Shown here: positions 1,532-22,025 of the stretch, piece after piece
Position numbering within the stretch: position 1 is the first letter of the stretch
How the letters are laid out: the number at the start of each line of letters is the position of its first letter
Source of the DNA: Cytidiella melzeri
Lineage: Eukaryota > Basidiomycota > Agaricomycetes > Polyporales > Irpicaceae
Reading direction: 5' to 3'
DNA length: 64,000 bases
NCBI GenBank assembly: GCA_022592445.1
Contig: JABYQR010000059.1
Location: forward strand, 103,761 to 167,760
Made by a program: the position numbers and the translations under genes
The notes under the pieces: generated by a model
Seen by the model: the letters and a program-made list of their open reading frames with translations, nothing else
Told to the model about the DNA's origin: nothing
The model's database searches: none

Positions 1532-1540
1532 GCTGTTCTG
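1532..1540. repeat. left 9-bp target-site duplication of the RecQ/DUF6589 element
   Basis: GCTGTTCTG at 1532-1540 recurs at 22017-22025, immediately outside the other terminus. Its first base is also the last base of the right duplication of the small element, so the original target read ATACTGCGG then CTGTTCTG. Confidence 0.85.
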
Positions 1541-1589
1541 TAGTCTCGTACCCAGACGTTTTGGGAATCCCAATTAGGACAGGGGATGG
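1541..1589. repeat. left TIR, outer fragment
   Basis: Begins TAGTCTCGTACCCAGACG. It is cut at 1585-1589 by the Copia target duplication (GATGG here, CCATC on the minus strand). The inner half of this TIR now lies inverted at about 12300-12382. Confidence 0.8.
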
Positions 1590-1700
1590 TGTTGTGATGC
1601 GAGAGGCGTTCGAGTGCACGAGAGATAGCAAGAGTGAATGAATATTTAGACAACCAATTGCAGGGTTTTTATAAGTATATAGAAAAGAGGATAAGATGAA
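1590..1700 (-). repeat. Copia 3' LTR, distal fragment
   Basis: On the minus strand this is the last 111 bp of the 290-bp Copia LTR, ending ATCACAACA and followed by the 5-bp target duplication CCATC. It differs from the matching part of the 5' LTR at about two positions. It is separated from the rest of the 3' LTR (7858-8043) by the Plavaka insertion, whose 7-bp duplication AGATGAA lies at 1694-1700. Confidence 0.88.
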
Positions 1701-1822
1701 CATCAGGAAAAAGGGGTTTTCTACCTAATAACCCTAAATCTAGGTAGTGCGCAGGTGTCCTCGTAGATACCAGTAGAATCCCGTAGATATCAGTAGAGCC
1801 CGTAGATGCAGACCGAAAATAT

Positions 1823-4800
1823 TTACACTGTTATTGACCGAGATCTTCGCCAATTATCTACTAGCTGTCGAAATAACACGAAGTCTGAATGTCGTAGGTA
1901 CGCATTCACGTAAAATCGGTCACAACGTTGTAGTACATTCTCCGAAGTCCAGTCAGTTCGCGCGACATGTACTCGTCCCCAAGCAGGAATCAGATGGCAA
2001 GTGCGTACAATAGAAGTGATAGGAATGATGGATGCTCGACGACGATGAAGCCTCTGTGACGGCGCAACAGAAAACATACCGGTGAGATCGTCGTATCGGT
2101 GGAACGGTGTGTACCACTCGATATATGCCAGCGGATGCTTGCTAACGTGCTCCATGTTGCTCGAAAGTCGAAAAAGAAGCCTAACTTGTCCGACCGTCAT
2201 CCCTAGTATTACAAGTTAGCGTACAGACTCCGAGTTGCGCAACACCATGAAAACTGATACTCACCGTCCAGAGGGTGGCTAGATATTCCGTCTTCTCTCT
2301 CTGAGTCTTGGGTGCTGTCGACCACTCCCTCACGCGCAAGAACGGTCGAAAATTGGGATGGAGTCGCCGGTCGAAGACCTCCCGCGGACTTTGCAGGTAT
2401 TGCGCGAATCGAGTCCATAGCAAGTGTTTTTGACACCTGGCTCATACGCGGGAGCCGCTTCTTGAACTGTTTGTAGACTGAAAATGTTGTGTACATGTTG
2501 ACCACACGGAGGAAGGAGTGCGCGTTCGAGGCAGCCTGTATTGGTAGGCTGGGCCGGCTGGCTGATGAGGACGCTACTGTCTTCGTGACGAAGTCCTCCA
2601 AACAACGAATAAAGTCCAGTGCACCAAACTCTTCAGTGATTGTCTTGACTGACGTGCTTGGGAACGCCGGACGTTTTGAGATAGTGTACTCCTCTGAGTC
2701 GACGTCTGCCCGCGCGTGGCTCTCCGGTGCTGTCTCTTGCTCAACCTCCTCGCCATCCTTCTCTGCGTCCTCTGCCTCTTCAGTGTTGTTGTCTCCCGAG
2801 CGTGAAGGCAGCTGTGAGTTGTGGCCGGCCTTGAGCCACTGAAGGTACTGGTCGAACCTTCGAACCGCATCCTGGCGCTCCATCCAGGTCGTCATCTGCT
2901 GGATGTACTGCTTGCGGTTGCTAGCGCGATACCCAAGCTTCGCGAAGTCGATGTGAAGCCGCTCAGGTCCTTCGGTGTTATAGCCATCCGCCAATCCAAA
3001 AAGTCGGATTGAGTCGATGTAGTGGCTCATCGAATGAAGCTTCGGGATGTTGAAGTCGTCACAAACTCCCAGACGCACAAAACCGTGCTTGTGCAAATGA
3101 AAGCGGATCCAGGCGTCCTGTAGGCATGAAAGTGAGTCCTCGGTGTGCGCCTCGTAATGAGCGTAATAGACGAAGTCGAGAACGGCTCGCACCGCTTTCA
3201 CGACGTCTGGATCAGCAGCTCCCGCAACAACGCCGAGGAATACCTTTTCCATCTGCTTGTATTCGTTACCAGTCCACTGGGACACCAGCGAGATGCCCTT
3301 CTTGAAGTGGCGAAGATCCGGATGCAGTGGCATGGTGCGGAACCGCCTGTTGACTTCATCCTCTTTGCCGTCCATGCATGCTGTCGCCCATTTCACGGTA
3401 TGGTCTTTGAAAACTCCCTTGTGCAGTTGATGGAGCAAATCCGGTGTCAGGCAGGTGAAGATGTCGCAGTGAGGGAGGTTCGCCCAGAAAGGATGGATGG
3501 AACGCAAACCAGCCTCCGCAAATCCTGGCCCCTTGTTTCCCTCGAGCGCGCTGCATATCATTGCGAGCATCTTCTCAGGGTCTCGCATCACCGGCAAGTC
3601 GACAGGCACACCCCGTTTGTTGGGCTGCACGAGACATTTTGGGCAGTGATTCTCCTGGCAGCAGGCCACGAGACATTGTTCCGGATGGTCAGCCACGTAT
3701 GCGGCCACGATAGGGTGGGCTCTGCGGACGTACCCATCAGCACAGACAACCTCCACTCCTTTCCTTCCCGCCTCGACAAGTGGCTCCAGGAGCGAGCGCA
3801 TGCAATCGTGGAAGAGTTGATAGGCCAGTACAGCACGCTTGGCCTTCGGGACGGACTCCAGTTTCGCCACAGGTAGGTACCCAAGTAGAACAGTCGCATG
3901 GGATGAAGGGGACCGGCGTAAGCTCTTCGGGATGTTACCTATGGTGAGATAAACAGGCCACGCTGACTTATCGCCGCTGAAGTTTGACAGCTGCGTCTTA
4001 TCAGACGCGAGTATCACAGGAACAAGTGTAGCTCCTTTTGGGAGCAGTTTCTGCGCAGGTGATTATCAGTTTGGTTTTCTGCGTCTCCACTCGTTTACTC
4101 ACCTGTACTCTCTCCCACCACGCACCACTCCACATCTCGCCGAGGACAGGTCTCTCTCCCCTATCGTCCTCGTATCGCTGTTCTGGTGCGTAGCGTAGGT
4201 TGTCTTTGAATGTCGGATTTGACAATAGCTCACGGATACACTCTACAGGATTTCGCTTCCAAAGTTCAAACACCTCGACACCGCTCTCTCCTTCGCTTCT
4301 CTCCTCACACTGCAGTTCAAAAAGCTCGCACTGCCATCCAGGCCCACGAGGAAGACTGTCAATCTTCTTAAAAAATGCCCGCTTATCTTTGAACGACAGC
4401 GGCAAGCGGTTTTGGATCTGTAAAGGCCGGTAAGAGCAAACACTGATTCTAAATAATGCTCTTACTTACAATATCAAGTTTTAGGTACCTGTCAATTTCG
4501 GATTGACTCAGTCCGCTATGCATCATCCATTGGGCCAAGCCCCACTCCTCCTCACTGGCAAAGGGAACCCACGGTGCGTCCGCTTCAACCCCTTCTTGTA
4601 CTCTCTCCTCGTGCATCACTTCAAACAGAGTTCGTCCTCGACCCGTCGCAGCTCCTGCTTGACCAGACGTATACCAGTGGTCATCAAGAAATGGATTTTT
4701 TGGCATGCCGCCTGCCTTGTGTCCTTCGCTAGCATCCGGTGCAGCCTCAACTCGTGTTCGCTTGGATGGCGGCAAGTCCAAGAGTGGCGATGGCGGTGTA

Positions 4801-5033
4801 TGCGGCTCATGACCATCAGGTGCGTCGTCTGAGCTGTGTATGGCAATATTCTGGGCAGCGGCTGATGGCGACTCGGAGCTTGCTCTGTTTGACACTGCTT
4901 GCACAGCTGTTGTACCAATTCTTGCGGCCGAGTCCCGAGATCTCCGACAGGCATTGTTCAGCTGTATGTGCGCTTTGAGTCCTTGTGCGGTAGGCTTTGT
5001 GGCACCACAATGGAAACACCGATGAGGAGGCAT
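1823..5033 (-). CDS. Plavaka-family transposase (1014 aa, 4 exons)
   Basis: Exons are 5033-4470, 4417-4103, 4050-2265 and 2202-1823; the 3045 spliced bases are in frame throughout. The N-terminus has a C2H2-like finger (CFHCG, then HIQLNNAC). The core has hallmarks of the Plavaka transposase, a CACTA-related family expanded in mushrooms: ILASDKTQLSNFSGDKSAWP, PVYLTIGNIPKSLRR, a Cys-rich CCQENHCPKC segment, LTPDLLHQLHKGVFKDH and GYNTEGPERLHIDF. An acidic linker follows, then a C-terminal region with HPLAYIEWYTPF, TCHLIP and WTSENVL. It would act in the nucleus, excising and inserting the element by binding its subterminal motifs. No stop or frameshift was found. It starts divergently from the DUF6532 gene. 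Confidence 0.9.
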
Positions 5034-5253
5034 GGTCAGAGCGACACGGACAACACAAAGCAGGCGGTGAGCGTATTAAATTTTTTTTCCTTGAACTCCG
5101 ACGTGTAGTGATGGTATTCAAATTATGGGGCAGCGATTTGTTGCTTAGTATCCTCCGATTTTGTGCGCTTGTCGGCTCCTTTTCTCTCCGCCACACTCCT
5201 CTCTGCCACGTCTACTTTTTGTTGTCTACAACTCGACTGCCTTCAGGACTCTC
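5034..5253. promoter_or_regulatory. divergent promoter region inside the Plavaka element
   Basis: 220 bp separate the two start codons. It contains a T-run at about 5080-5090 and a pyrimidine-rich stretch before the plus-strand ATG. No consensus TATA box was assigned. Shared use by both genes is inferred from the geometry. Confidence 0.5.
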
Positions 5254-7488
5254 ATGCCTAGAGCCAAGAAGAAAGCTCAAGAGACCCAGGTTTCGGAGGA
5301 TGACATATCCGAAGATGACAGCGCTCAAACGCTGCCTGCGAAGAGTACAACAAGCAGCAAGAAGCCCCGCACCACCGCTCCTTCAAATACTGTGACACGA
5401 CGAGAATGGAAGAAGTCTTCCAAACAGGAGAAGTTAGGTGAGATCCTAACGAGTCTGGTGTCCTGATTTTGACTGATTTTAGCAGAATTCGAAGCCCTTC
5501 AGAAATTGGCTGCAAAGCTCGAGCGGGAAAACAAAGCCTTGAAGCGATCTCAAGCTCAAGGTATGTAATACTTCGCCTGTGATTCAGAAGCTGACAATAT
5601 ACATAGACAGTGGTAAGCGAGCAACTGTGCGGATCCGCACACCTCCAGCAGCCTCGCAGCTTGTCAACGACAATGACTCTGACACAGGAGACGCTAACGT
5701 TGAAAACGACGACGGCGATTTCTCACCTGAGGAAGAAGACACTGGCTTCGACACCTTCCAGTCTCCGGTATGTTACACAGTCACAGTAAGCTGTCGGTGC
5801 TCACCCTCTCTTAGTTTCAGTCGCAAGGAACAATTCAAGTGACTCAGCCACCTCTCAAGAGGCTGACACGTCGCGTCAACGACCCAAAGACACCGGTGAT
5901 TGCTACCAACACGAGGCAGGAGCGTTCTTCCACACCAGGTGCACTTCCCGCGCGAGCTGAGTTTTATGCACGTTCGTCATCACCGCCCCAGCCCTATGAT
6001 TACCGGCACAGTCGTCATTCATCACGAGCTAGTGAGCGAATGTCTAGTATTGGTGACTCTCCTCCTCCAGCCAGTCGTTCTCCGAGCCGCGCATCATCAC
6101 CATTGTTTCTTTTACCTGACTCAACAGCTGTGACCGACTTGCAAGACACAGCCGGCTCGCCACTTCAAGATGCGCACAACACTCAGGTTGCTCTCTACAG
6201 TAAGTGGTTCCATATCTGCACGGCTGGAGCTGTATCTGACCAAGCTTAATGTTCCTAGGAGCTCGTAACGTTGGCGAAGATGTACCTGCACCGGGAGAGG
6301 AGCCCCGGCGTCGTGGGCGGGCACCTTCGTCTATAGAGAGCCAAGTACAGCGTCAACATAAGCGACCACGTATCACTCCGTCAACTGCTACCCCCCTACA
6401 AATGACCTTGACTACAAGTGCAGTGTCAAGCCTGTTCTCTCTACTAGGGCAAAAGAGGGAGACTACTCGGGTGTTACCGCGAAAATCATCGCACGGTCCA
6501 TTGTCCGATATGAATTGAAAGTACTTACGGAGGCTGCATTTCCAGATCACGACACACAGTACACATGGGCACGCGAGGTATTCCGTGCATCCTGTCAAGA
6601 ATACGAGCGTACATACGGCGATAACGAGGAAGTCGCCAGGATCTATACTTTGGTACGTCTGGTGATCTACCTTTGTGTCGGTACTCACCAAGCTTGCAGA
6701 TTGTCAATCGCGCCTCTACTTTCCGAGGTCATGTCAAAGACAAGGTTTGCAACAGAATTGTGGAGACATACGGGTTGGTACGAGACGTAGCTACCGACAA
6801 TATGGCACAGGTGAACGCTGATCGGGTGAAGCGGTTGCTTGAGCCCGTTGGGCGCCGCAGTGATGCCAACCGCTATTGTTACAAGGTGGGTGCCAGTGTC
6901 TTCGCCGGCTTCCTTTCTCAGTTACTCACCATTGTAACCCCCGATTGAAGGAGTTTGACAAAAATCCACCTCGCGGGCTCATGGCAGTGCCCATTATTGT
7001 TCATGCACTGCAGGACGTCATCACTTCGCGATCTGGGGGCTCTACTCATCCTCCGCCGGGTGTAGAGTTCCGCAGCCTCTTCGACCCGGTGCCATTACCA
7101 ACCATCGCGCTGCTACTCACAATGGTATGTACTCACATTGGGAATCCGTGCGCAAGAACTATTGATGCATAGTCCGAGTCACTAGGTCCGCTACGGGTTG
7201 CAGCGCTGGTCGACCGGACGCCTGGCACAAAAGGATAGGACCCACGAATTTCGCGAAACAACATACAAGGGTGTCTTCACAGAACATCTCCGACACCTTG
7301 AAGACTGGCAGGAGCTTAATCGTACGGTCACCACGAAGATTCGCAGCGCTATGTATAAAACGGTGATGTGAGTATCGACTGTGTTCTATGTGCACGCGCG
7401 CATCTCATTGGGCTTCGCAAACAGCTGCCTCGGAGGATTCAGCTTGGTGGACGAGAAGTTGGCGGGACTTTCAGACATGGCGAAGTAG
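5254..7488 (+). CDS. DUF6532 protein carried by the Plavaka element (577 aa, 10 exons)
   Basis: Exons are 5254-5437, 5483-5560, 5607-5767, 5821-6199, 6259-6369, 6448-6652, 6700-6895, 6951-7124, 7186-7367 and 7425-7488; the 1734 spliced bases are in frame. The N-terminal half is basic, then low-complexity and Ser/Pro/Arg-rich, with a short coiled coil (EFEALQKLAAKLERENKALK). The C-terminal half matches the fungal DUF6532 pattern: AFPDHDTQYTWAREVF, NRASTFRGHVKDKV, FDPVPLPTIALLLTM, YKGVFTEHLRHLEDW. The domain has no established function. Its place between the transposon ends, divergent from the transposase, suggests an accessory factor (regulator, end-binding protein or targeting factor); this is inference. 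Exon 5-6 splicing (intron 6370-6447) is the least certain. Confidence 0.82.
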
Positions 7489-7857
7489 AATGCATTGCAG
7501 GACCTCGAGGGGTGAACAGCTGAAAACGCAGGCAGTGATTAGATACAGCAGTCGCGGAAATACCCAATTCATACTTAGTTCACATATGCTTACTTGAAAG
7601 ATTCTGATATGTTATCACGCATGCATTGCTCCTCTCTTATTGTGCTACAGGGTGCTACAGACTGCTACAGAAGTCCGACTACGTAGAAAAGAAGACCATC
7701 TCAATAAACTACGGAAGCTTACACGTTCAAGGGCTTGCTACGGAGTGCTACCGAGCCAACAGCCGCGAATAACTTTGCTACCTGAGGGGCACTTGTTTAC
7801 CTGCCCTACCTAAACTACCAGAGCTCGGTAGATCTCGGTAGCAGCCGTCATGTTTCC
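7489..7857. repeat. Plavaka right subterminal region
   Basis: Non-coding. It holds repeated GCTAC/GTAG-type motifs, such as GGTGCTACAGACTGCTACAG near 7650 and GGTAGATCTCGGTAGCAG near 7828. The matching left region is about 1701-1822. This fits transposase-binding subterminal repeats. Confidence 0.6.
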
Positions 7858-8043
7858 AGATGAAATAAGCAAGTAAGAAATGTACGGATGCGCGGAATGA
7901 AGTGGAGAGGGATAATACAAATATAGAGATACCGATGAGGAACTAAAATGGAATAGATAAATGTATACTCGGAAGTATAGGAATCAGTCGGGTTGTCGGG
8001 ACTTCCATATATGTGTAGTGATGGCACGTCATACATTACAACA
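7858..8043 (-). repeat. Copia 3' LTR, proximal fragment
   Basis: On the minus strand it begins TGTTGTAATGTATGACG at 8043 and runs 186 bp to the Plavaka insertion. With 1590-1693 it totals 290 bp, the same as the 5' LTR, at roughly 97-98% identity by eye. A purine-rich polypurine tract (GAGGGGGAG) lies immediately upstream on the minus strand at about 8044-8052. Confidence 0.88.
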
Positions 8044-8888
8044 CTCCCCCTCAACGAGTGGCGATATTGATGAGCGCGAGTTGCTCAGAATGTTTGATGC
8101 GTGAAAGCGCCTTGGTGAGAATATCGGCGCAATTATCATTTGAACTGCAGTGGGGGACAAGAATAGTTCCGTCGAGAATTCACTCGCAAACAAAGTGATG
8201 GCAAATATCGATATGCTTCGATTGGGAATGGAATTGATGGTCCTGAGTGAATGAGATAGCGGCGAGGTTGTCGGTGGCGAGAGTGGTAGGTCCAGTAGGC
8301 GCAAAGCCGAGTTCTAAGAGAATTTCCCTGAGCCAAATAGCCTCCTTCGCTGCGTGTGCAAGTGCTACGTATTCCACCTCCATAGTCGAGAGAGCAACTG
8401 TGCTCTGCTTCTTTGAACTCCAGCTAACCATGCCTCCTCCGAGGAGGAAAGCATATCCAGATACCGATTGTCGGTCGATGCGGTTCTGGCCCCAGTCGGC
8501 GTCGCTGAATCCTGAAATGGTTAGATCAGGAGTTGCTCCGTATGAGATTACTAGTTCTCGGGTCCCTTTGAGGTAACGAAGCACGTGTTTCGCCGCAGTC
8601 CAATGAGCAGCGGTATGTGCCAAATTGAATTGGCTAAGGGCTTGGACGGCGAAAGCGATATCAGGCCGAGTGCCGACAGCGGCGTACATGAGAGAGCCAA
8701 TTACGGCTTGGTAAGGAATGTCATCAACAAGTTCTTCATCTGTAGTGGCTGGATTAAGCGTGACATTTGCGTCAAGAGGTGTGGACACGGAATTGCAGGA
8801 TTCCATGCCAAATCACGCAAGAATAATATTGATGTATCTGGTTTGGGAAATGGTAATCATGCCTTTGTCTCGCAGGCGAGCAATCTGT
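8044..8888 (-). pseudogene. Copia pol, C-terminal part (end of RT and RNase H)
   Basis: On the minus strand, from the inversion junction: QIARLRDKGMITISQTRYI, an RT-connection segment (YLKGTRELVISYGA), then a Ty1/Copia RNase H with FSDADWGQNRIDRQSVSGYA, WSSKKQSTVALSTMEVEY and DNLAAI, and a tail ending at a TGA next to the polypurine tract. Stops replace Arg codons (ILA-stop-FGM and VCE-stop-ILD), which fits CGA to TGA. DICHH and FVCE look like Arg-to-Cys at the same kind of site. This fragment continues the pol cut off at 16002-16019; a 7.1-kb inversion moved the first part away. Confidence 0.88.
8872..8888 (-). repeat. inversion breakpoint repeat, copy 1 (17 bp)
   Basis: On the minus strand ACAGATTGCTCGCCTGC; the same 17 bp is on the plus strand at 16003-16019. 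To one side lies Copia sequence, to the other RecQ sequence. Confidence 0.9.
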
Positions 8889-9840
8889 GGCAGACAATCG
8901 GAGTGATGTTCGGACGATCGTTGCCACAATTTATCTTGTACATATGGTTGCAATTGTATTCGAGTTTGTCCAGGGTTCAGGTGTTAAGGTGGCGGAAGCA
9001 ATGAGAATGGGCCTGGAGATTGTCATGAACGGTCTCATCGTGCCAAGCTTGTCGAAGTGCTTGCAAAAGTTCGCACCCCAGTGCACAATACAGTGCGCCT
9101 CATCAATGACCGTGCAGCGAATGCGCTGCATCCACGCAGGGTTGCGAATAAGCTTGGAGAACCGCTCGTGCTCGAAGATCATTTCTGGGGAGGTTATAAT
9201 GATGTGGATTTTGTGCTTTTGAGGTCCTGGACATAAGAAAAACATCAATCAAGGAATCAGAATAAGCATGCGTACATACCTTATGAAGCTGATCGCTGTA
9301 TGTTTCTCCGTTAACAGCTGCCAAAGGTATACCCATCTTATTGAAGCGCGCAGCCTGCATATATGCATGTAAATAGCAGTTACCTGAGGTTTATGACGGT
9401 CCGCTGCTAACCTGGTCCTGTTCAAGCTCGTTCAAAGTTGAGACAATAATTATCTTCGAGTAGCCAGCCTTGTCCACAAGGAGGGGGAGAACGAATGGTA
9501 AGGTCTTGCCTGCGCCGGTGCCAGCCATCAAGACTGAGTCGAGCCCAAGGAGGATAGCTTCGGAGATGTCCAGCTGCCAGCTGTACGGAGTGTTGCCTGT
9601 GCGCCTGAGACACTCCTCTGTCATCCTCTGACGAGTAGCCGCAGAATCAAATTTTCGATTGGCTTCTGCATCCTTTCTTGTCTCCTCCAGCAATTTTTGG
9701 AATCGGGTCTGTTCAGCAATAGATAAGTCTTCCGTAGTCCGCTGTGCCCTCGGTCGTGCCAAGTCATCCGCTGATACGCCCGGAAATCGGCTAGGCGCGG
9801 AGACCCGGCAGCAGCCCGCCATTTGCGCGACCCGCGTCAT
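8889..9840 (-). pseudogene. RecQ-type helicase, N-terminal half (inverted)
   Basis: The minus-strand frame runs from an ATG near 9840 (a more upstream start is possible). Walker A is MAGTGAGKTLPF; next come IIIVSTLNELEQDQ, an intron (9411-9355), then ARFNKMGIPLAAVNGETYSD, an intron (9279-9227), then IIITSPEMIFEHERF, the DEAH box (VIDEAHCIVHWG) and the SATLTPE motif. After TPE a one-base loss shifts the frame; the shifted frame continues LDKLEYNCNHMYKINCGNDR to the breakpoint. A second one-base loss is likely just after intron 2. The ATPase core belongs to the RecQ-like helicases expanded in mushrooms. Helicase domain 2 lies at 16020-18961 on the other strand. Inactivated by inversion and frameshifts. 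Confidence 0.85.
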
Positions 9841-10345
9841 CCTGAGCGGCAAGTCCCTCCACTTTCCCAGTGTCACGGGCACGAGGAGTTCACCGAGGGC
9901 ACGAGGAGTTCGCCGAGGATCCGAGGACTTGACAAGGAGCAACGCGCCGGAAACATCCGGGGCCAAGGAATTGCACCGAACTCTGACTCACAGACACGCC
10001 CCTTTTGCATCGGAGCATGGGCCGGCCAGCCACCAAGAGTTTCGGACGCGGGTCGGACCAACGGTAGAAGAAACTTGACGCGCAAACCCCGTTTCAGGAA
10101 GACTCCTATCACGCCACGCTGTGCAACTCCTGGACGGCGCCTCATCACCTGCTCGCGACGGTTGGCGCCTCTGCAGCGCAAGGGCGCGTGCCGCTACTCC
10201 GCGTCGACCAACGCTGTGTCCCGCCGGGCATCGACTCGCTGGGCATTTTACCTCCGCAGACGGAAGTATTCTGCCACCCCGTTTCCTCGCTCTCGCGTTT
10301 GGGTTTAGGACATAGAAGGAAAGGTTTAGGAGAGGGCCTGTAGGG

Positions 10346-10355
10346 TATATAAAAA
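10346..10355 (+). promoter_or_regulatory. TATA box candidate
   Basis: TATATAAAAA preceded by GTAGGG and followed after about 30 bp by GACAATCAATCAATCC, a plausible initiator zone. It sits 150 bp upstream of the ORF at 10505. Confidence 0.45.
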
Positions 10356-10504
10356 GGTGTTGCTTGTACTGCGTAGACAATCAATCAATCCCCACCCCAG
10401 TTTCCAGAGTTCACTTTATGCTTTGCGTTCGCGTCGAGGGAGTCTCTTCGCGCCCATAGCCGTAGCTTCTTCTGCGTTGTCCCACTGCGACTTCCTTCCC
10501 GTTT

Positions 10505-11032
10505 ATGTCAGCTGCATCTACCAATGACAACCCGCCTCGAGTTTGCCTCTACTGTCCCACCGTTCCCCACCTACCCGACGGTTGCTGCCCTTACCGCCTG
10601 CGCCCGCGCAAGGTTCTACGCCGTTACCCCATCATCCCCGCGCCCACGCCGCCGCCAGAGCCCTAAGCAGCGCCTACGGTCTCCCCTGAGAGATCAACTT
10701 CTAAATCACCCTCACCAGCGTCGTCCGTCGCCTCCGTCACGGACTCGCTTGATAACTGCTCTCACTGCAACACTCAGAGCGACCACCCAATTCCCCTACG
10801 TACAGGACCTTTTGTCCCGCTCGACTGCAATCGCCTGCGCGCGCCGCACCCAGCTTGTTGGCTGTCACCAGACTTTGAGGGCGGGGACCACGGGTGCGAA
10901 CTAGTGCAGTTCAATCTTACCAGCTCTACCGACGTCGTCGTTGGCCACGCATTCGCCTGCAATACGCATCGCCGCTCGGGAGGTGTTGTTCTACACTACC
11001 GCCCCCGCGTGCAGTCTGTCGAGTCCAATTGA
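10505..11032 (+). pseudogene. unrecognised Cys-containing ORF with one in-frame stop
   Basis: An ATG at 10505 opens a frame that runs to TGA at 11030-11032 with only one interruption, a TAA at 10664-10666. The first 53 codons include VCLYCPTVPHLPDGCCPYRL; the second part includes NCSHCNTQ and HPACWLSPDFEGG. A TATA-like box lies 150 bp upstream. I recognise no family. GC-rich sequence can stay open by chance, so it may be spurious; otherwise it is a recently broken gene of the element's left arm. Confidence 0.3.
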
Positions 11033-11537
11033 CTGCGATTTCACATAGCCTTCCGCTGCGACTCGCGCTCCATTAGCTTATCTTTCTCTTATGTTTCCTT
11101 TCGACTTCGTTATACGGCGTTTGCTTTTCACTGCGTTATTTTACTGCGTTACTGTGTTGCGTTTCACCTTCACTGCGTCGAGCTTACTGCGTTCACTTTC
11201 ACTGCGCCCGCGTTTTACAGCGACCATTCATCTTCACCAGCGACCGCGTTTTGTGTTCGAGATTCCTATTGCGCCTGCGTTTTCCATCCGTGTTTCCCCG
11301 CGCGCCGTCTTACTACAAGTCGCGAGGTCTCCCGCGCGTTCTCTTTGAGACACGCTATAACTCTTTTGCTTTTACCGCGCCGACTTGCCTTTTTACCCGC
11401 GATACACGTGGTAGTTGCCCGCCTAGCTCCCTGCGCATACACTTTATCATAAACCTTGTCGCTCTTTTTTTAGCACCAGTAAAACTAGGACTCTAAGACC
11501 ACCTCGCACACTTTAACACTTCCGCGCTTCCACACCT

Positions 11538-12299: not shown

Positions 12300-12382
12300 C
12301 GGTCATGTGCGAATGATCTACACCCAATCACTACAAAGTTCACCAGACGTTCGGGGAGCGAGCTGTCTTTTTTCTCGCCATC
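12300..12382. repeat. left TIR, inner fragment (inverted)
   Basis: Contains GATCTACACCCAATC and CACCAGACGT, matching the right TIR at about 21870-21905 (GATCTACACCCAATCT, CACCAGAC). It ends in CCATC (12378-12382), the left Copia target duplication. With 1541-1589 it makes up one complete TIR. Confidence 0.8.
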
Positions 12383-12672
12383 TGTTGTAATGTATGACGC
12401 GCCATCACTACACATATGTGGAAGTCCCGACAACCCAACTGATTCCTTTACTTCCGAGTATACATTTATCTATTCCATTTTAGTTCCTCATCGGTATCTC
12501 TATATTTGTATCATCCCTCTCCACTTCATTCCGCGCATCCGTACATTTCTTACTTGCTTATTTCATCTTATCCTCTTTTCTATATACTTATAAAAACCCT
12601 GTAATTGGTTGTCTAAATATTCATTCACTCTTGCTATCTCTCGTGCACTTGAACGCCTCTCGCATCACAACA
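12383..12672 (+). repeat. Copia 5' LTR (290 bp)
   Basis: Begins TGTTGTAATG and ends CATCACAACA, so it has the inverted ends TGTTGT and ACAACA. Flanked on the left by CCATC, the same 5-bp duplication found beyond the far end of the 3' LTR at 1585-1589. A TATA-like ATACTTATAAAAAC occurs near 12585. Confidence 0.9.
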
Positions 12673-12690
12673 GGTTATGAGCCCCGCGCT
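12673..12690 (+). promoter_or_regulatory. primer-binding site (half-tRNA type)
   Basis: GGTTATGAGCCC directly follows the 5' LTR. It is complementary to the anticodon arm of initiator tRNA-Met (GGGCTCATAACC), the internal primer used by Drosophila copia-type elements, rather than to a tRNA 3' end. Confidence 0.75.
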
Positions 12691-12821
12691 CTAATTGCAC
12701 GAGAATCTCTTTCCATCAAGCTCTATACTTGAACCTTATTCAAATCCAGGCGACAGTACGTCGGCATTACGCCCGTAGGCCATCATTACTGTTATCTCTT
12801 GATCTTGTGATTAGATCTACT

Positions 12822-15800
12822 ATGGCGACAACTACTGCCGCAGCTTCCAAGACGTCGGGCAGCTATTGTATTGAACCACTGAAGGGCGCCAAGAACTATA
12901 TTACTTGGCGCGTCCAAATTACGGACATTCTCACGGACATGGGGCTGTGGGAATACACTTCAGGAGACACCACCAAGCCCGCTGATGCAGTACAAGCTGC
13001 CGAGTGGACCAAGAAGGATTGGAAGGCGCTTACAACCATCCGACTCCGCGTTTCAAACGCAATGATGGCGCATGTGATTTCTGCCAGTACTTCGAAGAAT
13101 GCCTTCGACACACTTTCCAACCTTTTCAATAACGAAGGTGCAGTTGCTCTAATTGTTTTACGTCGCTGTTTTCTTCGTTACCAGATCCCTGAGGAGGGCG
13201 ATCTTGGTCAAGAACTCCGCAAAATCAAAGGACTTTGGCAGGAGATCAACTTGGTACAGACGCCGAAGATCTCCGACAACGAACTAGCCTCCGTCATTCT
13301 TACGGCACTACCGCACTCCTGGGATCCCCTGATCTCATCAATCTCACTTGACAACACTCTGACATCAGCCAACATTATTGGGCGTAGTCTACAAGAAGAC
13401 AATCACCGAAAGGAACGCACAACAGCCGAAACTAGTTTATATGCGCATACCCAACGCCAAAGATCAAAGTTTTGCGCCGGAGTATTCTGCCACGGCTGCG
13501 GAAAAGAAGGACATATCAAACCTGAATCTCGAAGTGGTGGGAAGAATAAGGAAGATGGTAAGAAGGAAGGGCAAGCGAAGGAAAGGAAAGGAAAGGACAA
13601 AAGTAAGAACAAGAGATCATACGCTCATATCGCCGAAGAAGAGGAAAACGGCGATAGTAACACCGAGCCCAAGGAATACGCTTTCCCGGCTACAGAGAAT
13701 GTTTCCGCTGTGCCCACCGGTACTTGGCTTGGCGATTCCGGAACTTCTTCGCACATCATCAATGACAGATCTCTATTCATTACCTTTTCCCCCATCAAAA
13801 GTTCTATCCACGGTGTTGGGAACTGCTCAAGCCTCGGACGCGGCGATGTGCGAATTGCGTTTATCACAAAGCAAGGAACCGTTCCGGTCATACTCAAGGA
13901 CGCGTTATACGCACCATCAATGAGATTTAATCTTATTTCCTTAGGAAGACTCACAAGCGCAGGCCTCTCATACGAAAGCAAAGGTGCGGCACTTTTTATC
14001 AAAAACGGATCAAAAGTAATCGGACATGGAACCAAATCCGGCAACCTTTATCGAATGGCCGTCAAATCCATCAACGCGATTTCAATGATTGCTCGCTTCG
14101 ATCGCTCCTGGTATGAATGGCATTGCGCCCTTGGCCACATCAATAAGGGACAGTTGGAAGAGATGCACCGCAATGGTTTAGTATCAGGTATGAACGTTGA
14201 TACTACGTCAGATGATGATTTTGTTTGTGAAGCATGCATCACTGCGAAACACACTCGCGCATCAATTCCACTCCGGACTTTACGCAAGATCTCACAGATT
14301 GGGGAGATCATCTTTTCCGATATCTGGGGACCAGTGACTACGAATTCCATTGCGGTTCATTCCTATATGATCTCATTTACAGACAGAAAATCACGTTTTG
14401 TCTGGGTTCAATTCATGAAAGATCGGGACGAAGCCGAACAGAAACTCGAGGAACTTGACGCGTTCATCAAGAACCAATTAGGTTGCCGCATCAAATCCTT
14501 GCGTGTTGACAATGCAAAGGAGTATGTCCAAGGAAAGATGAAATCTTACACTGATAGGCGCGGCATCAGACTAGAGCCTACAACACCCTACACCCCTGAA
14601 TACAATGGCGTATCAGAGCGACTTAACCGAACTCTGGTCGAACATGCTCGCGCTATGTTAATTTTGCGCTGGCTTCCAAAATATCTATGGGAGGAAGCAA
14701 TCTCTTACGCCGCTTATGTCAAGAACAGATCTCCAACGCGCGCATTACCGCATTTGACTCCATTCGAAGCGCTCTGGAAGAAGAAACCAGATGTTAGCAA
14801 CATACACAAATTCAGTGAAGATTGCTGGGTACGTGTAAACGTATCTTTGTCCAAACTCAACGCGCGATCAGTCAAACAAACATTTGTTGGAATCAAAGAA
14901 GGGACCAAAGGATTTAGGTACTTGGTACCTGAATCTCGGAAAATTCTTACATCGCGTGAGGTTATTTTTCCGCACTCTGATGACCTTACGGCACCGATTG
15001 TCGAAACCACTACCAATCTTGAGGGGGAGAAATCTATACAGTCACCCAAAGTTCCTATTCAAACCAAGAATGAAGTGGTTCCTACCCGCTCTCTTCATGA
15101 CAAACCCCGGCTCAATTACTTGAAACTCAATGATGGCCCACAGAAGACCCTTCAGTTGCTGACTGCCAAGCCTAAGTCGAAGATTACTACTGTACCTGTA
15201 TCCGAACCGTCGGATCAGGGGGAGTTGCCATCAGTCTCGGAGATACCGTCCGCCAAAACGGACGCAAACATGTGTTTTATCGCTGATGCCTCAGATTCGC
15301 CTCAGTCATTTGACGAAGTTAGGAAGCGCGATGACTGGCCTCTTTGGAAAGAGGCTATGGACAAAGAGATGGCACAATTGGACAAATTAGGCACTTATTC
15401 AATGGCAGACCTTCCTGCTGATCGCAAGGCCGTCGGATGCCGATGGGTATTCACCGTTAAACGTGACGTGAATGGTAACATTCTCAAGTACAAGGCACGT
15501 CTTCTGCGCAGGGTTTTTCCCAGATCCCTGGTCAAGATTTCTTTGCGACTCATGCCCCTGTCATTCGACTCGAGACTTTTTGCACTATCATTTCAATTGT
15601 TGCTCATCTCGATCTCGAACTCCATCAGGTTGACGTCGTTGGGGCATATCTAAACTCCCCACTCCAGGAGGACATCTACATGAAGCAAGCGCCCGGCTAT
15701 GAAGATAATTCGCCGCGTGTATACCGCCTGCACAAGGCGCTCTATGGACTCAAGCAGGCTGGCCGTGCCTGGCGCGCAGAACTCAATCGCGTTCTGCTTG

Positions 15801-16019
15801 AGGCCCTCGGATTCACGCGCTCTCAAGCCAATCCGTGTCTCTATTATTGCGGAAACAAATCAGATTTTACGCTCATTGGTACTCATGTCGACGACTGCCT
15901 CGTGGCATCATCTGATCCAAAGGCCATAAACATTTTGAAAGACGATCTCAAACGCTACTTCAACATCACGGATCTCGGAGAAGCCACACTTTACGTCGGA
16001 ATACAGATTGCTCGCCTGC
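12822..16019 (+). pseudogene. Copia gag-pol, N-terminal part (gag, PR, IN, RT)
   Basis: ATG at 12822. The order is: a gag domain (MATTTAAASKTSGS onward); a zinc knuckle CHGCGKEGHIKPES whose last Cys is missing; aspartic protease (GDSGTSSHI); GAG-pre-integrase (WHCALGH, CEACITAKH); integrase core (SDIWGP, LRVDNAKEY, YNGVSERLNRT); then Copia RT (GCRWVFTVKRDVNGN). A one-base loss at about 15504, just after KYKARL, shifts the frame. The shifted frame continues HQVDVVGAYLNSPLQED, ALYGLKQAGRAW and THVDDCLVASS to GIQIARL at the inversion breakpoint. The rest of pol is at 8888-8044 on the other strand. It nested in the left TIR of the RecQ/DUF6589 element. Confidence 0.9.
16003..16019 (+). repeat. 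inversion breakpoint repeat, copy 2 (17 bp)
   Basis: ACAGATTGCTCGCCTGC; left of it is Copia RT, right of it RecQ helicase domain 2. Inverse of 8872-8888. Confidence 0.9.
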
Positions 16020-18961
16020 CCAAGGGTGCGAAGGAGTTGGAGAGTCTCGAGTTTCTCATTTCCGAAGCTTACACGAGCAAAGAGCTCAAACGCGCTATTG
16101 TTTATGTGAACTCACGCGACTTGGCTAAAGTAGTGTGCGAGCATCTTCAAAGTAAAGTGCCTCCAGAATATCATTCCCGCATAGACTTCATTCACAGCTT
16201 ACGGCACCCCCTTGCAAAAAAGCGTACAATGCGCCTTTATCGTGAGGGTCGCATCAAGATACTGATCGCAACAGAGGTTGCAGGAATGGTAAGGAATTAA
16301 TTGATCACATCTGTACAAACCAGCAAAGCTGACTACATGACAGGGTATGGACATTTCCGACATACGACGGGTCATCCAGTTCAAAGTCACGTCTACTCTA
16401 AGCGAGTGGATGCAGCATTTTGGCCGTGCTGGTAGAGATGGAGAACCTGCGGAGGCTATTCTGTTCGTCGAGCCATCTGTCTATCAGCTGACAAAGAAAC
16501 GGGTGACAAGAGTATTACAAGGATCCAAGAACTCTGCAGCTGAGAAGAAGGATGAGGTGACCATCAAGCGCGAGAATATTGAGATTGCTCTTGATAAAAG
16601 ACCTTCGGTGTTGAAGCGTGCTTGGGATGTTATCGACGAAGACCAGGAGGATGAAGATCAAGCACCAGCTGCTGAGGATTGTGAAGATGATGAGGTCAGT
16701 ATCGTCGAGCCCGAGCCTGGCATGGTTAGTGTGGGGGAGGAGGGGGGTGCAGATGCTGAGGAAGAGGAGGCTGCGGTTGTCACAGATTTTCAATGTTTCT
16801 ACAAGACTTGCCTTACCAGGCAACGGTATTATTGGGAATATTTAAGCGCTTGTCAAGCGCTTATCCAGCGCTTATCCGGCGTCTATTTAGGCGCTTATCC
16901 AGCGCTTATCCAGCGCTTATCAGGCGCCTATTCCGGCGCTTATTCTCAGTGCCTATCAATTGATGCGCTGATGCGCCTCCTGTCTCTGATGCGCTGATGC
17001 GCTCCTTTCCTTATCTGTGTATCACATGATAGAACTCTCTGGAACATTGTGGAACATGCTGGAACTATGATGTCATAGTATAGAACATTCCATTAGATGA
17101 TGTCATAGTTCCTAGAACCTTCTGGAAAAGTCTAGCCTTGTCTTAGAACAAGCTAGAACAAGTCTAGCCTTGGAGCTGGGTCATGGGGTCAGGTCATGGG
17201 GACAATTGCTATTGGTTGATTATTGAAGTGGCACCACTAGGGCATAGGGCATGCTTAGTAAGGTAGATTACTTTGCTTACTCATGTAGGTATTAGGGGTC
17301 TTAGGGTAGTACCTGGGGTCCTCCCCTTCATGTATATATAGAGGCACTCCTGAGGGCATATCCCCTCAGTCTTATCCACTCTGTTGATAAAGGACTACCT
17401 TGTACTCTCCAGTACTTCGCTCACCACACCTCTTACTCTCTATATCTCTATCTCTCCCTCAAGTTAACCACTTATCTGGTGAGTGTAACCTTAACTGTTA
17501 CAGCGGTCATCCAAGCAGGTGACACCGAGGTAGATCTAGCACCAACAGATGTTGCGACTGTTCCTGTCGCAACATCTGCTGCTGATGGCGAGAACAGTCT
17601 TGATGCTGCGTTGTCTCCGGAGATAGAACCCCGCAAGAACCTTGAACAAGGCATGCGGCAGATGGCTACTACAGACGGCTGCTGTCGTGATGTCTACAAT
17701 GTCATCTTTCAGAACCCGCAGAGAGGCAGATGTATGTTCAAGCTTTTCCCTCAGTTCTGCTGCTGATTTTTTGTTAGCTATTGGTGAAAACTGTGGCAAC
17801 TGCGACAATTGCATCCGTAACCTCAAGGCACGCACTGTTTGTCTGACAGCCCATCAGCAGTATATTGCGGACTTGGTGGACAGAATCGGTGTATGTCTAC
17901 CTGACCCTCCTAATGATTCCCTCCATGTCAAGAAGCAGAGGCGTACTGGAGAACATTGTCAGAGTATTCTCAATGCTCTATACGAGTTTTGTTACAAGCA
18001 CTGGACCCGACATCATAAGCGGTGCTCGTGGGAATCAGACGAATTACTACCCAACAAGACCGCTGCGTTTCTTGCAACAAACGCTCATGTACGTACCCCA
18101 GAAGACTTGAAGACTTTCCTATTGGATTGGGCATATTTGGACCAGATTGGCGCACTTGCGCTTGCCCGTGTACAGGCCGCAGAAGACCATTGGCACGAGA
18201 CTCAAGGTACCGTGGACTGTATGATGATTCTGTCACTGAAAGCAACAGAAACACCAAAACAGACTAAGGACCGTTACAATGAAAATTGGCGCAAGAGGCG
18301 CAAAACTCTCAAGGCAACACCAGCCGTCAAGATGGATGAAAATCTTCCAGGCACGCTGAAGTTGGACTTGAGCTTATCTATGTCTCTTCCCTTGACCGCG
18401 TTGACACTTGCATCACTTTCTTCAAAGCCTGCGCCTCTGCCTTTGCCACCTGTGCCTCAACTCTCCAAACCCGCAGCAGATGCTATACCTTTGACCTGGC
18501 TCTCGAACGAAACTCCTCTTAGTTGGGCACCTCAAACCCGGACCCCGTCTATCAGAAAGCATTCGAAAGCTTGCAGCCAAGTTTCCTCAAAGGCTGCAAA
18601 GCCACAACAAACTCGGCGCGGTCGCACTAATTCTAGTCAGCAATCGGCTGCCGTTGCTTCATCCTCTCGCATAACTCTTGACAAATCTCCACCATTGACT
18701 CGTGCTCCAAGCAGCTTCTTTACGTTCTCAATGCTTTTGCCACCACAATCTCTCAAACCAGCCCCCAGTCCAGCTGTCTTTGCTATGTTGGAACACATGT
18801 TTCATGCTTCCGAGTCTCTAGCCTCCCATTCTGCTCCCTCTGATATCTCCGCTTCAGTGCCGTCTCAGTCCACACAAGATATTGACACAACACAACCACG
18901 TCGTCCAAAGCCTCGACAAAGGACCAAGATCCATGAAGATTATCATATGCGCCTCAGATGA
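16020..18961 (+). pseudogene. RecQ-type helicase, C-terminal half
   Basis: Starts at the breakpoint with PKGAKELESLEFLI. Helicase C follows: AIVYVNSRDLAKV, DFIHSL, ILIATEVAGM, an intron (16289-16343), then GMDISDIRRVIQF, and motif VI (QHFGRAGRDGEPAEA). An acidic linker follows. The gene is broken at 16778-17502 by a solo LTR and resumes in frame. Another intron (17732-17777, GTATGT donor) leads into a zinc-binding CGNCDNC motif, then a Ser/Pro-rich tail ending at TGA 18959-18961. Removing the LTR and the inversion would rejoin one helicase gene. Its stop lies 43 bp from the stop of the DUF6589 gene, a tail-to-tail pair. Confidence 0.85.
16778..17502 (+). repeat. solo LTR of a Ty3-type element inside RecQ (725 bp)
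   Basis: Starts TGTCACAG and ends CTGTTACA, flanked by the 5-bp duplication GCGGT (16773-16777 and 17503-17507). The insertion sits between two in-frame RecQ codons. A TATATATA box lies at about 17333-17340. Near its start is a tandem array of GCGCTTATCC-like units (about 16845-16965). Related copies: 27950-28604, 32165-32794, 39919-40595, 45130-45794. Confidence 0.93.
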
Positions 18962-19004
18962 TAACTGTACTGTAGCTCATGTATAATCTCGATACGCACA
19001 ATAT

Positions 19005-21773
19005 CTATAGAATTGTCATTGATGAGTTTGTCTCTGAGGCTCGCTGATCTCCTCCCTCAACAACCTCCGGATCCTCCCAAATCTCTGTTGCTGCGCGGCT
19101 CACCAGTCGTTTCTCTGACCAACGGCCTATTGTGGCCTGGAGCTTGACAATGTTGCTACCAAGAGCAACGAAGTCCTTCGCACGTCGTGAGGAGTCCAGT
19201 TGTTGCTTTGGGGTATAGATGTGAACTTGAGATAATTTGTAGGCTGCTTGTAGCTGTGTGATATCCTTCTCTTTGTCGGGGGAAGAGTGGCTCTTACCGC
19301 GAGAGAAATGATTAAAATCGGCCTCAACGTGATCTTTCACCTTGCGTAGGGTTGGAATTGCAGCAGAAATCTTTTGGATGTATTCCCATGTAGCATACGG
19401 TCCGTAAACCATGAAAATCGACTGCACGAAGTCAGCATTTACATACCCAGAGTGAAGCTCAATTGTACCTTAATATCTCTAATGTTATGCTCTTGAAGCA
19501 TGTCAAACGCCAAAAAGGCTTTGCCGTTGTTGGTATTTGCCAGCCAACAGTAACGCAGAATGAACTCCCTGAGACCTGCTGTGAGAACCAATCAGATGTG
19601 TATACCAATGCAAAATGTACCTGAGATCCTCTGGCCACTCGCGAAGCAGACCTTGAAAGAGTTCCAGCATCTCGATTACATACTTCCAGTTGCTGCCACC
19701 GTGGTAGCGGAACAGCAGGCGGGGAAGAAGATCAATCATTCTCCCAACGTCCCCAGTATGCATCGCATTGTCCAAGTTCACGTAGTCGAGAAGATCGCGG
19801 TTGAGGAGTATTTGGTTCATGAAGACATGGTCTTGTTGTGCCGTGTTCCTCTGCTTCTCTTTCTGGTAGGCAAACGTAGATGCGTAGTTCTCTACAATTC
19901 CCTCTGCAAGACTGACTAGAACCTCCGGGCTCTTCTCGCGCAGCTTTGCAAGATGATCAACACCACCAACGACTTCCCACACGTCGAGGATGTGAGCTTC
20001 AAGAATATGGTGGTATGCGTTGCAAACCTTCTGGTGAAAGTTCCCTTGTACTGACATGAAGTGTAGCCCCTTGCATTTCAGAAGGTCAAATGCATGCTTG
20101 AGTCCGCCTATGCCTGTGGTCAGATGCTGCTTGTGGATAGAATCCTCCTGCGCAATTTGCGCATGGAGCCAGCCGAACAGCGCGACAATGTGCTCCATGC
20201 GGTGCCACCAGTTCAAATCTTGGGCACGGATATTCTGGAGGCTGCGAAGGTGGGAAACAGTCAGCTGATCGCCCAACCAGAAGAACAGTTTCTTGTGCGA
20301 CATTCGCTTCTTGGCTGTGTCTGTACCTAGTCCCAGCTGGCGTTCCCACTCCGCTACACACCGGTCGTTGCCTTCAAGCGAGACCTCTTCAATATGAGCA
20401 GTGTCGAGGAGGTACTGCATGCGAACGTGAGCTTTGCCAGTTGGAAGCTGGCGAATGGGGAGGGGGCGTGAGAAGCACGTATCATCCTCATGTGAATACT
20501 TAGTACGGTCGAATTGGGGGGAGTTCAGCAGGATATTGAGGACCCGCCATTTGTTGAAAGCAAAGAGACGTTCACTAGCCTTGCTGTCAAGCTCAAGGAT
20601 TTCGAATGCGGTGATGGGATGATTACATTCGCGCCGCCATTGCTCCTGATAGCTTTGAGCGTCGGGCAAAGGGATGTCCTGACATTCCAGAACATAGACA
20701 GTTGCGGCACAGCCGCTCTCAAAGACTGACTGATTGTCGACGTGTTGCTCGATCTTGTTGAAGCGCACGTTCAGGTTGTCGTACGAGGTGGTGAACTCCT
20801 TGACATGTTCATGGAGGTCTCGCTGCATTGTGTTGCGTTTTGCCTGTGCCAGCTTCTCAAGCCCGATGTACTTCCACTTTTGACTCATTGTCACGCCGAG
20901 CATGTGCGTGGTATTGTTTGCCTTTGCTGAAAGTCCGCACGAGGTAAAATAGATCGACATGAATTTTTGGAATTTACATCTGTGATGCGACCGTCCAAAG
21001 GACAGCATGCTGATGATAGCTACAATAGACTATAAACCTGTAAGCATACAAGCTACCAAAGCCAGCAATGTTACTTACCGGTGCATGATTCTTGTAGGTG
21101 TTGCGTTGCAGCTGCAGAGGCGTCGACAACGCCGCATGCAGTAAGCTCCAGGTCAGAGGAGCTACCCTCTGGTAATTCGCGGTCAGTCTGCTGAGCTTGA
21201 CATTGAGCAAACTCTCCTCTGAGAGCTCTTCAGGAGGAGATAGCACCAACGGCTTGAGGAGCCGCATCTCGCGATTCATACGCATGCGAACATTTTCATC
21301 AGCCCAGCGTTCCATTGTCATTCGAGCGGCCTTGGTGCGAATGGCCTCACCATGTTTGCGCGGGGGCCAGTACCACTTCTCGAGAATCGAGGCTAGCATG
21401 TCGGTATGCATGAGCAAGGTACGTGCGTACCTGATCTTTGCGTCGTCAGTATTGAGCTGGAGGTTCCAGCTCAGATAGTAGAGGAAGTTTGGAAGGTCCA
21501 TCTCCTCCCCAGCCATGTAGTCAATAATCCTTCCCATCTTTGCAGCGATGTCGTGGTGTGGTACTGTCTTGAGATACCTGCGCAGGATTCAGTCCGTGCC
21601 AGGATGCCACTAGCACCTGCGGGCAGCTCTATGTTGTCCAGGTCATCCGTGGGCTCCCCATTGTATTGTTTGTTGTCGTCATGGTCAAGGTCTGGGTCGA
21701 GTTGGTGTGGCATCTTGAGATCCAACGCCCCGAGATAGATTTCGCGCAAAGTTTGAGAGGGAGGGACAAGCAA
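19005..21773 (-). CDS. DUF6589 protein, candidate transposase of the TIR element
   Basis: The supported exons are 21560-21079, 21029-19621, 19568-19469 and 19421-19005. Introns are 47-52 bp; splicing keeps the frame to TAG. Landmarks: HHDIAAKMGRIIDYM, ISMLSFGRSHH, FFWLGDQLTVSHLRSLQ, MEHIVALFGWLHAQIA, WEVVGGVDHLAKLR, HTGDVGRMIDLLPRLLF, YVIEMLELFQGLLREWP and LQEHNIRDIK. These match DUF6589, a domain found in many copies in mushroom genomes, with no assigned function known to me. The conserved GDQLT, GDVG and YxxExLEL acidic residues could form a D-D-E triad (inference). The 5' end is unclear: an upstream frame (21773 to about 21590) needs an intron or a one-base frameshift near 21590. Otherwise apparently intact. 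Confidence 0.8.
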
Positions 21774-21849
21774 GGAGTGTGCAATTCAAGTCGTACTATG
21801 GAGTAGCGTACAGAGCCAATAATTGTAAACGCCCAATCATTTGCGCAGA

Positions 21850-22016
21850 AATCCATCACATGCGGATGATCTACACCCAATCTATACAAAATGCACCAGA
21901 CCCTCGGGGCCCACGCGTGCTTTTTGATTTGCCTTTTTCTTCTCAAACAGCACGCGCGCGCGTCTGCCTTTTTAGGAACGCAGTGACTGGCCCCGAGAGG
22001 TCTGGGTACGAGACTA
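21850..22016. repeat. right TIR of the RecQ/DUF6589 element
   Basis: Contains ATGCGGATGATCTACACCC and CACCAGACC, a variable CG-rich middle, and the terminus GGTCTGGGTACGAGACTA at 22016. The inverse of the split left TIR; best conserved at the two ends. Confidence 0.85.
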
Positions 22017-22025
22017 GCTGTTCTG
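22017..22025. repeat. right 9-bp target-site duplication
   Basis: GCTGTTCTG, identical to 1532-1540. Confidence 0.85.

Follow-up and report, generated by a model that had tools for sequence, protein, structure and literature searches.

Kolobok transposons duplicate TTAA, Mutator-like elements (MULEs) typically leave 9-bp target-site duplications (TSDs), the nuclease of AcademX elements is XPG, and AcademH, within the Academ superfamily, is reportedly the subject of Kojima 2020 (Mob DNA 11:15). According to the available excerpts of the respective papers, AcademH transposons produce TSDs of 9-10 bp, a trait tied to their helicase (PMC10045372), occur in Basidiomycota, Ascomycota and Mucoromycota while being low-copy in fungi (PMC10799480), and a ‘RecQ Helicase in Academ’ is mentioned (PMC3627910). 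Our literature search returned no basidiomycete transposon with a 9-bp TSD and no Agaricomycetes transposon joining RecQ with terminal inverted repeats (TIRs). The element described here, located at 1541-22016 of a 64-kb window (the whole stretch of DNA that was analysed), probably fits the AcademH group and would not be new in kind, since the combination of helicase, 9-bp TSD and probable fungal host matches the published description. An earlier note on this DNA had regarded the unit as undescribed, a view not supported by these three sources, whose accessible parts cover the helicase, the 9-10-bp TSD and the fungal hosts. We put at roughly 0.84 the probability that the locus is a dead cut-and-paste transposon of the AcademH kind, with DUF6589 as its transposase and a convergent RecQ gene as helper. 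New would be, at most, DUF6589 as probable transposase, the converging gene layout, and the high copy number together with recent activity.

The interval 1541-22016 is a TIR transposon bounded by exact copies of the 9-bp TSD GCTGTTCTG (Table 1), as the earlier note had read from the inverted termini and their identical flanks. The terminus TAGTCTCGTACCCAGACG lies at 1541-1558 (+) and, with one mismatch, at 21999-22016 (-); allowing up to three mismatches, the window holds 4 matches to it, compared with 0.01 on average in shuffled sequences. The earlier note had spoken of long TIRs as typical of Mutator-like elements, but the TIR measures only about 18-25 bp and is accompanied by a 70-bp subterminal repeat (77% identity). 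The left-hand neighbour is another, independent small element, which shares these termini but has its own TSD (ATACTGCGG, at 592-600 and 1524-1532).

The element contains nested insertions. A copia retrotransposon (target duplication GATGG/CCATC) is split into pieces, and the breakpoints of an inversion carry a 17-bp inverted duplication (8872-8888 / 16003-16019). All three nested insertions recognized previously, and the inversion, were recovered, but a fourth insertion (9772-11617), which is 92% identical to a stretch within the C49 element of the family, had been overlooked. Because of this omission the former estimate of about 8.8 kb is too large, and by length subtraction the element's own length would be about 7 kb.

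Table 1. Features of the element at 1541-22016 and of its small neighbour (window coordinates).
Feature	Position	Strand	Evidence or remark
Small non-autonomous element, separate, same termini	601-1523	.	own 9-bp TSD
Left TSD copy, GCTGTTCTG	1532-1540	.	flank comparison
Left TIR (TAGTCTCGTACCCAGACG...)	1541-1565	+	terminal repeat match
Outer piece of copia 3' LTR, inserted in element	1590-1700	-	duplication GATGG at 1585-1589
Plavaka transposon nested in copia LTR	1701-7857	-	PF18759 E=3e-87; 7-bp duplication AGATGAA
Remaining copia 3' LTR and 3' internal part, to inversion breakpoint	7858-8888	-	
RecQ helicase, N-terminal part, inverted segment	8889-9771	-	PF00270, alignment of relatives, translation with GAGKT
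Fourth nested insertion, solo-LTR-like (TG...CA)	9772-11617	.	relative inside C49 element
Copia 5' LTR (12383-12672) with part of gag-pol, in inverted segment	12383-16019	+	CCATC at 12378-12382
RecQ helicase, C-terminal part	16020-18961	+	alignment of relatives; interrupted at 16778-17502
Solo-LTR-like insertion in RecQ	16778-17502	.	duplication GCGGT
DUF6589 gene	19005-21537	-	frames 19005-19427, 19503-21008; PF20231 E=7e-82 on 19503-21008
Right TIR	21992-22016	-	terminal repeat match
Right TSD copy, GCTGTTCTG	22017-22025	.	flank comparison

The elements of this family code for a RecQ-type helicase, with TIGR00614, PF00270, PF00271 and RecQ structures (WRN, BLM and RECQ1) as matches. Within the window, PF00270 was detected on ORF 9391-9966 (E=3e-6) and PF00271 weakly, below the cut-off, on ORF 16347-16997 (E=0.007); the N-terminal part contains GAGKT, a nucleotide-binding motif. 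The RecQ sequences of three full-length copies align at 9753-9403 and 9221-8887 (-) and continue at about 16020-16291, 16329-16694 and 17521-18304 (+), the 5' border of the C-terminal part with the copia end (16020) being approximate. The best family for single RecQ exons of the full-length copies was TIGR00614, most scores falling below its whole-protein cut-off. The final RecQ frame ends at 18961, and the 3' exon frame of DUF6589 at 19005; our re-measurement of the gap between the two tail-to-tail genes gave the same 43 bp as the earlier note.

DUF6589 is a probable transposase, judging from linkage and from its conserved acidic residues, not from structure. The candidate DDE residues comprise D77 (18/20) and D247 within a GDxxT motif (25/26); a C-terminal D-x3-E, the further candidate, is present at 24 of the 26 loci with an aligned C-terminal frame, some of them aligned weakly. 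The stretch 20974-21537 (-), which yielded no Pfam match, is probably the N-terminal part. Against solved structures a single DUF6589 sequence gave chance-level similarity only (best E=0.17) and the profile no match; no relationship to other Pfam transposase families was detectable, with a weak HTH_Tnp_Tc3_2 signal in 2/27 sequences (best E=0.015). Similarly, the profile showed no similarity to the window's own Plavaka transposase (probability 0.1%), and a single sequence found no match in IMG/VR. An AlphaFold model of the window's DUF6589 exon alone, computed from a single sequence, was uninformative (pLDDT 35). In the literature searched we found no mention of DUF6589, PF20231 surfacing only in an unrelated context.

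The same genome holds many full-length relatives of the window element. At least 82 DUF6589 loci are present in the 49.7-Mb assembly, 38 of them with a tail-to-tail RecQ gene; among the 40 DUF6589-RecQ pairs lying within 6 kb, 39 consist of separate convergent genes and 1 is arranged otherwise. At 49/82 DUF6589 loci a known terminus lies upstream or RecQ follows downstream, and 39/53 RecQ loci are paired or end-adjacent (14/53 are without a tail-to-tail DUF6589). One DUF6589 group was seemingly unlinked to RecQ, until a search with TIGR00614 revealed the same tail-to-tail layout. A second lineage (B) retains this layout even though its DUF6589 is only 21-24% identical to that of lineage A, to which the window element belongs, and its ends (CAGRCTCCTACCCAGYCG) are akin to those of the window element.

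The 18-bp terminus (up to two mismatches) has 202 matches in the genome, compared with 18 for the reversed pattern; for exact TAGTCTCGTWCCCAGAC the respective numbers were 120 and 0, for two terminus variants 67 and 30 against 0 and 1, and for the lineage-B termini 69 and 0. The expectation that such termini stand near DUF6589 genes was borne out in this genome at 31/82 loci, where a terminus pointing inward lies no more than 3 kb upstream (all at 1.37-2.30 kb; an outward-pointing one within the same distance was found at 0/82), whereas at 33/82 we could find no terminus and no RecQ gene nearby. Exact 9-bp TSDs flank 29 of the 39 assigned end pairs: 9/12 full-size elements of lineage A, 8/11 of lineage B, 2/3 large elements without a DUF6589 match and 10/13 small ones (the remaining ten comprise three that are one base off, three with 8-bp TSDs and four with none). 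The idea of DUF6589 and RecQ as a mobile TIR unit is thereby upheld, with full-size examples from both lineages of this genome.

Some family members moved recently, as seen from the near-identical copies on C397 and C405, which are identical over 3,922 bp and sit at different sites with different TSDs. Precise insertion is documented by the copy at C22:75134-81889, which entered a small element with the same ends; this small element also occurs without the interruption at another place in the genome, and the joined flanks plus one TSD copy match that uninterrupted form at 98.2% over 829 aligned positions.

We infer a catalytic role for DUF6589: its protein would bind the short TIRs as transposase, excise the element and insert it at a target cut with a 9-bp stagger, while the RecQ helicase from the convergent gene may unwind or remodel the ends or the leftover gap. 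A family of ‘unknown function’ (PF20231) would gain a probable role as transposase. DUF6589-RecQ elements account for the abundance of both gene kinds in this genome, since 49/82 and 39/53 of the respective loci sit in pairs or near ends. This bears on fungal gene counts and annotation, where such genes may pass as host helicases, and the family, with its nearly identical copies, its sites lacking the insertion and its small derivatives, offers material for testing whether cut-and-paste transposition needs RecQ.

Four other explanations were weighed. It is unlikely that DUF6589 by itself makes up the mobile unit, with RecQ as optional cargo: at 44/82 DUF6589 loci no tail-to-tail RecQ was found within 6 kb (only the best candidates being scored), but the arrangement occurs in both lineages and the RecQ searches miss some genes. 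For instance, the element at C132:397-7047 gave no RecQ match and yet shares its 30-bp ends with the C49 copy, which does carry RecQ, so that an unmatched RecQ does not establish gene absence. We consider similarly doubtful a separate, undescribed superfamily, in which a DUF6589 transposase unrelated to Academ independently gained RecQ and 9-bp duplications; such a superfamily would be characterized by convergent DUF6589 and RecQ genes, YAGNCTCSTACCCAGNCG-like ends, 9-bp TSDs, lineages 21-24% identical, high amplification and recent activity. The silence of the searched literature on DUF6589 and the lack of any Pfam or PDB relative found speak for it, as does a copy number far above that given for AcademH in the available part of PMC10799480; moreover, RecQ is also carried by KolobokH (PMC9587614, in part), and therefore unrelated transposons have acquired it. 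Against it, helicase, 9-bp TSD and fungal host together make up the AcademH description in the accessible parts of PMC10799480 and PMC10045372.

Far less probable is a MULE that captured the RecQ and DUF6589 genes and was moved by a transposase encoded elsewhere in the genome. The 9-bp TSDs, common to both, would agree with it, but the TIRs of the family are short, and the DUF6589-RecQ pair was retained across two lineages 21-24% identical, which makes captured cargo hardly likely. We rejected a Mutator-like element upon finding no such transposase (PF10551) among the 10 window frames scanned or the 28 frames (>=150 aa) of three full-length copies (C127, C93 and C22), in line with the earlier note, which had seen none. 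Hardly credible, too, is KolobokH, a Kolobok lineage of DNA transposons with RecQ helicase that the available text of PMC9587614 gives as found only from fungi. The helicase and the probable fungal host agree, but KolobokH has its RecQ downstream of the transposase domain, whereas in the window family RecQ is encoded by a convergent gene of its own; the TSDs, 9 bp and of varied sequence instead of TTAA, also differ, and we rejected this assignment on TSD and gene layout.

The AcademH reading remains preferred as the probable one, by likeness to the published description: both are DNA transposons with a helicase gene and a TSD of 9 (or 10) bp, and the host in our case is probably a fungus as well, to judge from Plavaka, copia, introns and the 49.7-Mb assembly size. 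AcademH is reported, in the accessible portion of its description, as low-copy in fungi, in contrast to the abundant window family (at least 82 DUF6589 loci). Besides this difference, several results count against the preferred reading: DUF6589 matched no solved structure and no other Pfam transposase family beyond chance or weak signals, 10/39 end pairs lack an exact 9-bp TSD, and 33/82 DUF6589 and 14/53 RecQ loci stand outside the pattern. AcademX belongs to the same superfamily but, as far as the excerpt of PMC10045372 goes, makes TSDs of 3-4 bp and carries a nuclease instead of the helicase; the window family has 9-bp TSDs, and no nuclease family was found in the 28 frames of the three full-length copies. 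Subtelomeric RecQ helicase genes reported from fungal genomes (PMC7473861, PMC4522978) are likewise multicopy, but in the available parts of these sources they are placed at chromosome ends and not given as part of a TIR transposon, whereas the RecQ genes of the window family lie within TIR elements bounded by TSDs.

The window corresponds to C545:103761-167760 in a 49.7-Mb assembly, whose gene and repeat content points to a fungus. Motif counts across this assembly were used to evaluate whether the element is part of a mobile family. The exact terminal motif TAGTCTCGTWCCCAGAC occurs 120 times genome-wide (0 for its reversed control), while two variants of the terminus pattern were recovered 67 and 30 times (0 and 1 for the reversed controls). 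DUF6589 gave at least 120 matches merging into at least 82 loci, a lower bound since only 102 of 216 candidates were scored. When both RecQ searches were combined, 39 DUF6589-RecQ pairs (<= 6 kb apart) stood tail to tail and a single one otherwise; among the loci found, 39 of 53 RecQ and 38 of 82 DUF6589 belong to such pairs. Inward-facing termini were present within 3 kb upstream of 31 of the 82 DUF6589 loci (18 of a first type, 13 of a second, no locus having both), and outward-facing ones at none.

Twelve full-size elements of the window's lineage carry DUF6589 and both ends, nine of them (the window's on contig C545, together with those on C127, C93, C22, C151, C352, C49 and two on C132) flanked by exact 9-bp duplications; the duplication measures 8 bp on C161 and is absent on C173 and C168. 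Exact 9-bp duplications also enclose 10 of 13 small elements (one further at 8/9, two with 8 bp) and two of three large elements devoid of a DUF6589 match (the third at 8/9), which are either diverged copies or bearers of other cargo. These counts exclude seven alternative pairings among ends of neighbouring or nested elements, as well as a C236 pairing that uses an outer left end, all without duplication. The C22 element is nested within a small element having the same ends: joining its two flanks gives a sequence that matches, at 98.2% over 829 aligned positions, a small copy lacking the insertion, with the duplicated word ACCTCTCGG present once. This small host family shares its end sequences with the window's element, of which it looks like a deletion derivative. 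The earlier note's reading of a TIR element with 9-bp duplications and convergent DUF6589 and RecQ genes was right, and has stronger support than the sequence alone gave.

The window copy itself is dead, as its RecQ-type helicase gene (whose 3' end lies 43 bp from that of DUF6589, tail to tail) is broken by an inversion and insertions. The three nested insertions and the inversion listed in the earlier note all stand, the total of three does not (a fourth insertion was found), and the proposed unit of about 8.8 kb shrinks to about 7 kb once all four are subtracted. The other 11 full-size, both-ended copies of this lineage span 6.65, 6.66, 6.76, 6.78, 6.78, 6.80, 6.95, 7.42, 7.66, 8.52 and 11.77 kb.

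Features of the window element and of large elements with the same ends (C, contig of the same assembly; L, DUF6589 locus)
Feature	Position	Evidence
Left terminus	1541	TAGTCTCGTACCCAGACG, motif match
Right terminus	ends 22016, inverted	TAGTCTCGTACCCAGACC, one mismatch to the left terminus
9-bp duplication	outer flanks of termini at 1541 and 22016	GCTGTTCTG
DUF6589 gene	between termini	PF20231, E=7e-82 (Pfam)
RecQ-type helicase gene	between termini	helicase domains, alignment to relatives
Inversion in helicase gene	~8889-16019	17-bp inverted duplication at both breakpoints
Copia retrotransposon	within element	duplication GATGG/CCATC
Plavaka transposon	1701-7857, nested within copia LTR	7-bp duplication AGATGAA
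Solo-LTR-like insert	within element	duplication GCGGT
Fourth insert, 1.85-kb solo-LTR-like repeat	9772-11617	92% relative in copy C49 (L072 5026-6875)
Large elements without DUF6589 match	C411:9655-18397; C262:11872-22634; C57:13216-22516	9-bp duplications, one 8/9

The 1.85-kb repeat hit two different DUF6589-RecQ elements, at separate positions within the RecQ half. The Plavaka transposon carries a second gene (~5260-7500, plus strand, delimited by eye), for which Pfam returned no match in the single frame scanned (5839-6249). Just beyond the element's right end lies a 52-bp direct repeat (22423-22474 and 22785-22836, 88% identical). A small non-autonomous element (601-1523) adjoins the large one and shares its TIRs; it has a 9-bp duplication of its own, ATACTGCGG, which overlaps that of the large element by one G.

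Alignment of 26 DUF6589 frames to the window's separated 16 at 39-85% identity from 10 at merely 21-24%. The ends of this distant group, read where near-identical copies diverge into their flanks (CAGGCTCCTACCCAGCCG, CAGGCTCCGTCCAGCCG or CAGACTCCTACCCAGTCG), appear plainly akin to the window terminus; a pattern search recovered 69 of them (0 reversed). Many of these elements also carry RecQ tail to tail with DUF6589, and of the 11 that are full-size with both ends, eight have exact 9-bp duplications (C45 8/9, C15 and C177 none). Two 6,088-bp members (C397 and C405) are identical across the 3,922 bp compared, yet their duplications differ, indicating that this lineage moved recently. Neither terminus nor RecQ was found at 33 of the 82 DUF6589 loci, which could represent additional lineages, fragmentary copies or cases that the searches missed. 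Copies without a known inward upstream terminus (L030, L033 and L038, on C387 and C24; others on C61, C724, C229, C452, C111, C130 and C353), some of them open frames of 750-1019 aa, had RecQ beside C24:154972 only, and perhaps represent a third lineage with other ends.

Within all 28 open frames (>= 150 aa) of three full-length copies (C127, C93 and C22, the main exon of the last scanned as an identical stretch of L021), no family other than DUF6589 and the helicase families exceeded the Pfam cut-off. Since RecQ is a helicase (with relatives including WRN, BLM and RECQ1), we reason that the DUF6589 protein is most likely the enzyme for cutting and joining, while RecQ probably aids at the element ends (strand opening or gap repair). 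D77 (18/20), D247 inside GDxxT (25/26) and a C-terminal D-x3-E (24 of 26 loci with an aligned C-terminal frame, several alignments being weak, with E near 1) are the best candidates for a DDE triad, though other acidic columns are conserved equally well (e.g., D342, D393, D420). Searches with DUF6589 gave no sequence match to solved structures or other transposases.

Among published DNA-transposon lineages, AcademH was reportedly named by Kojima in 2020, and KolobokH targets TTAA, unlike the window element. In the excerpts available, target-site duplications (TSDs) are given as 9 or 10 bp for AcademH and 3 or 4 bp for AcademX, and are related to the encoded helicase or nuclease (PMC10045372); AcademH is described as a low-copy lineage of Basidiomycota, Ascomycota and Mucoromycota, with DEAD and Helicase_C listed as domains from AcademH, KolobokH or Helitron (PMC10799480). 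Further excerpts name a 'RecQ Helicase in Academ' (PMC3627910), report putative non-autonomous Academ elements as widespread in the mushroom Marasmius oreades (PMC8290104) and assign a RecQ helicase likewise to KolobokH (PMC9587614), the layout of which, as excerpted, differs from that of the window element despite the shared RecQ. On account of these descriptions of AcademH, Academ and KolobokH, we assign the window element to AcademH, of which it is probably a new member. The earlier note's proposal that such mobile units had not been described before is probably wrong. What seems new is the link between DUF6589 (of which the literature searched yielded no mention) and an AcademH-like transposon, the high copy number and recent activity of DUF6589-RecQ elements and, as judged against AcademH by its excerpted descriptions, the conserved converging layout of the two genes and the end motif common to two distant lineages.
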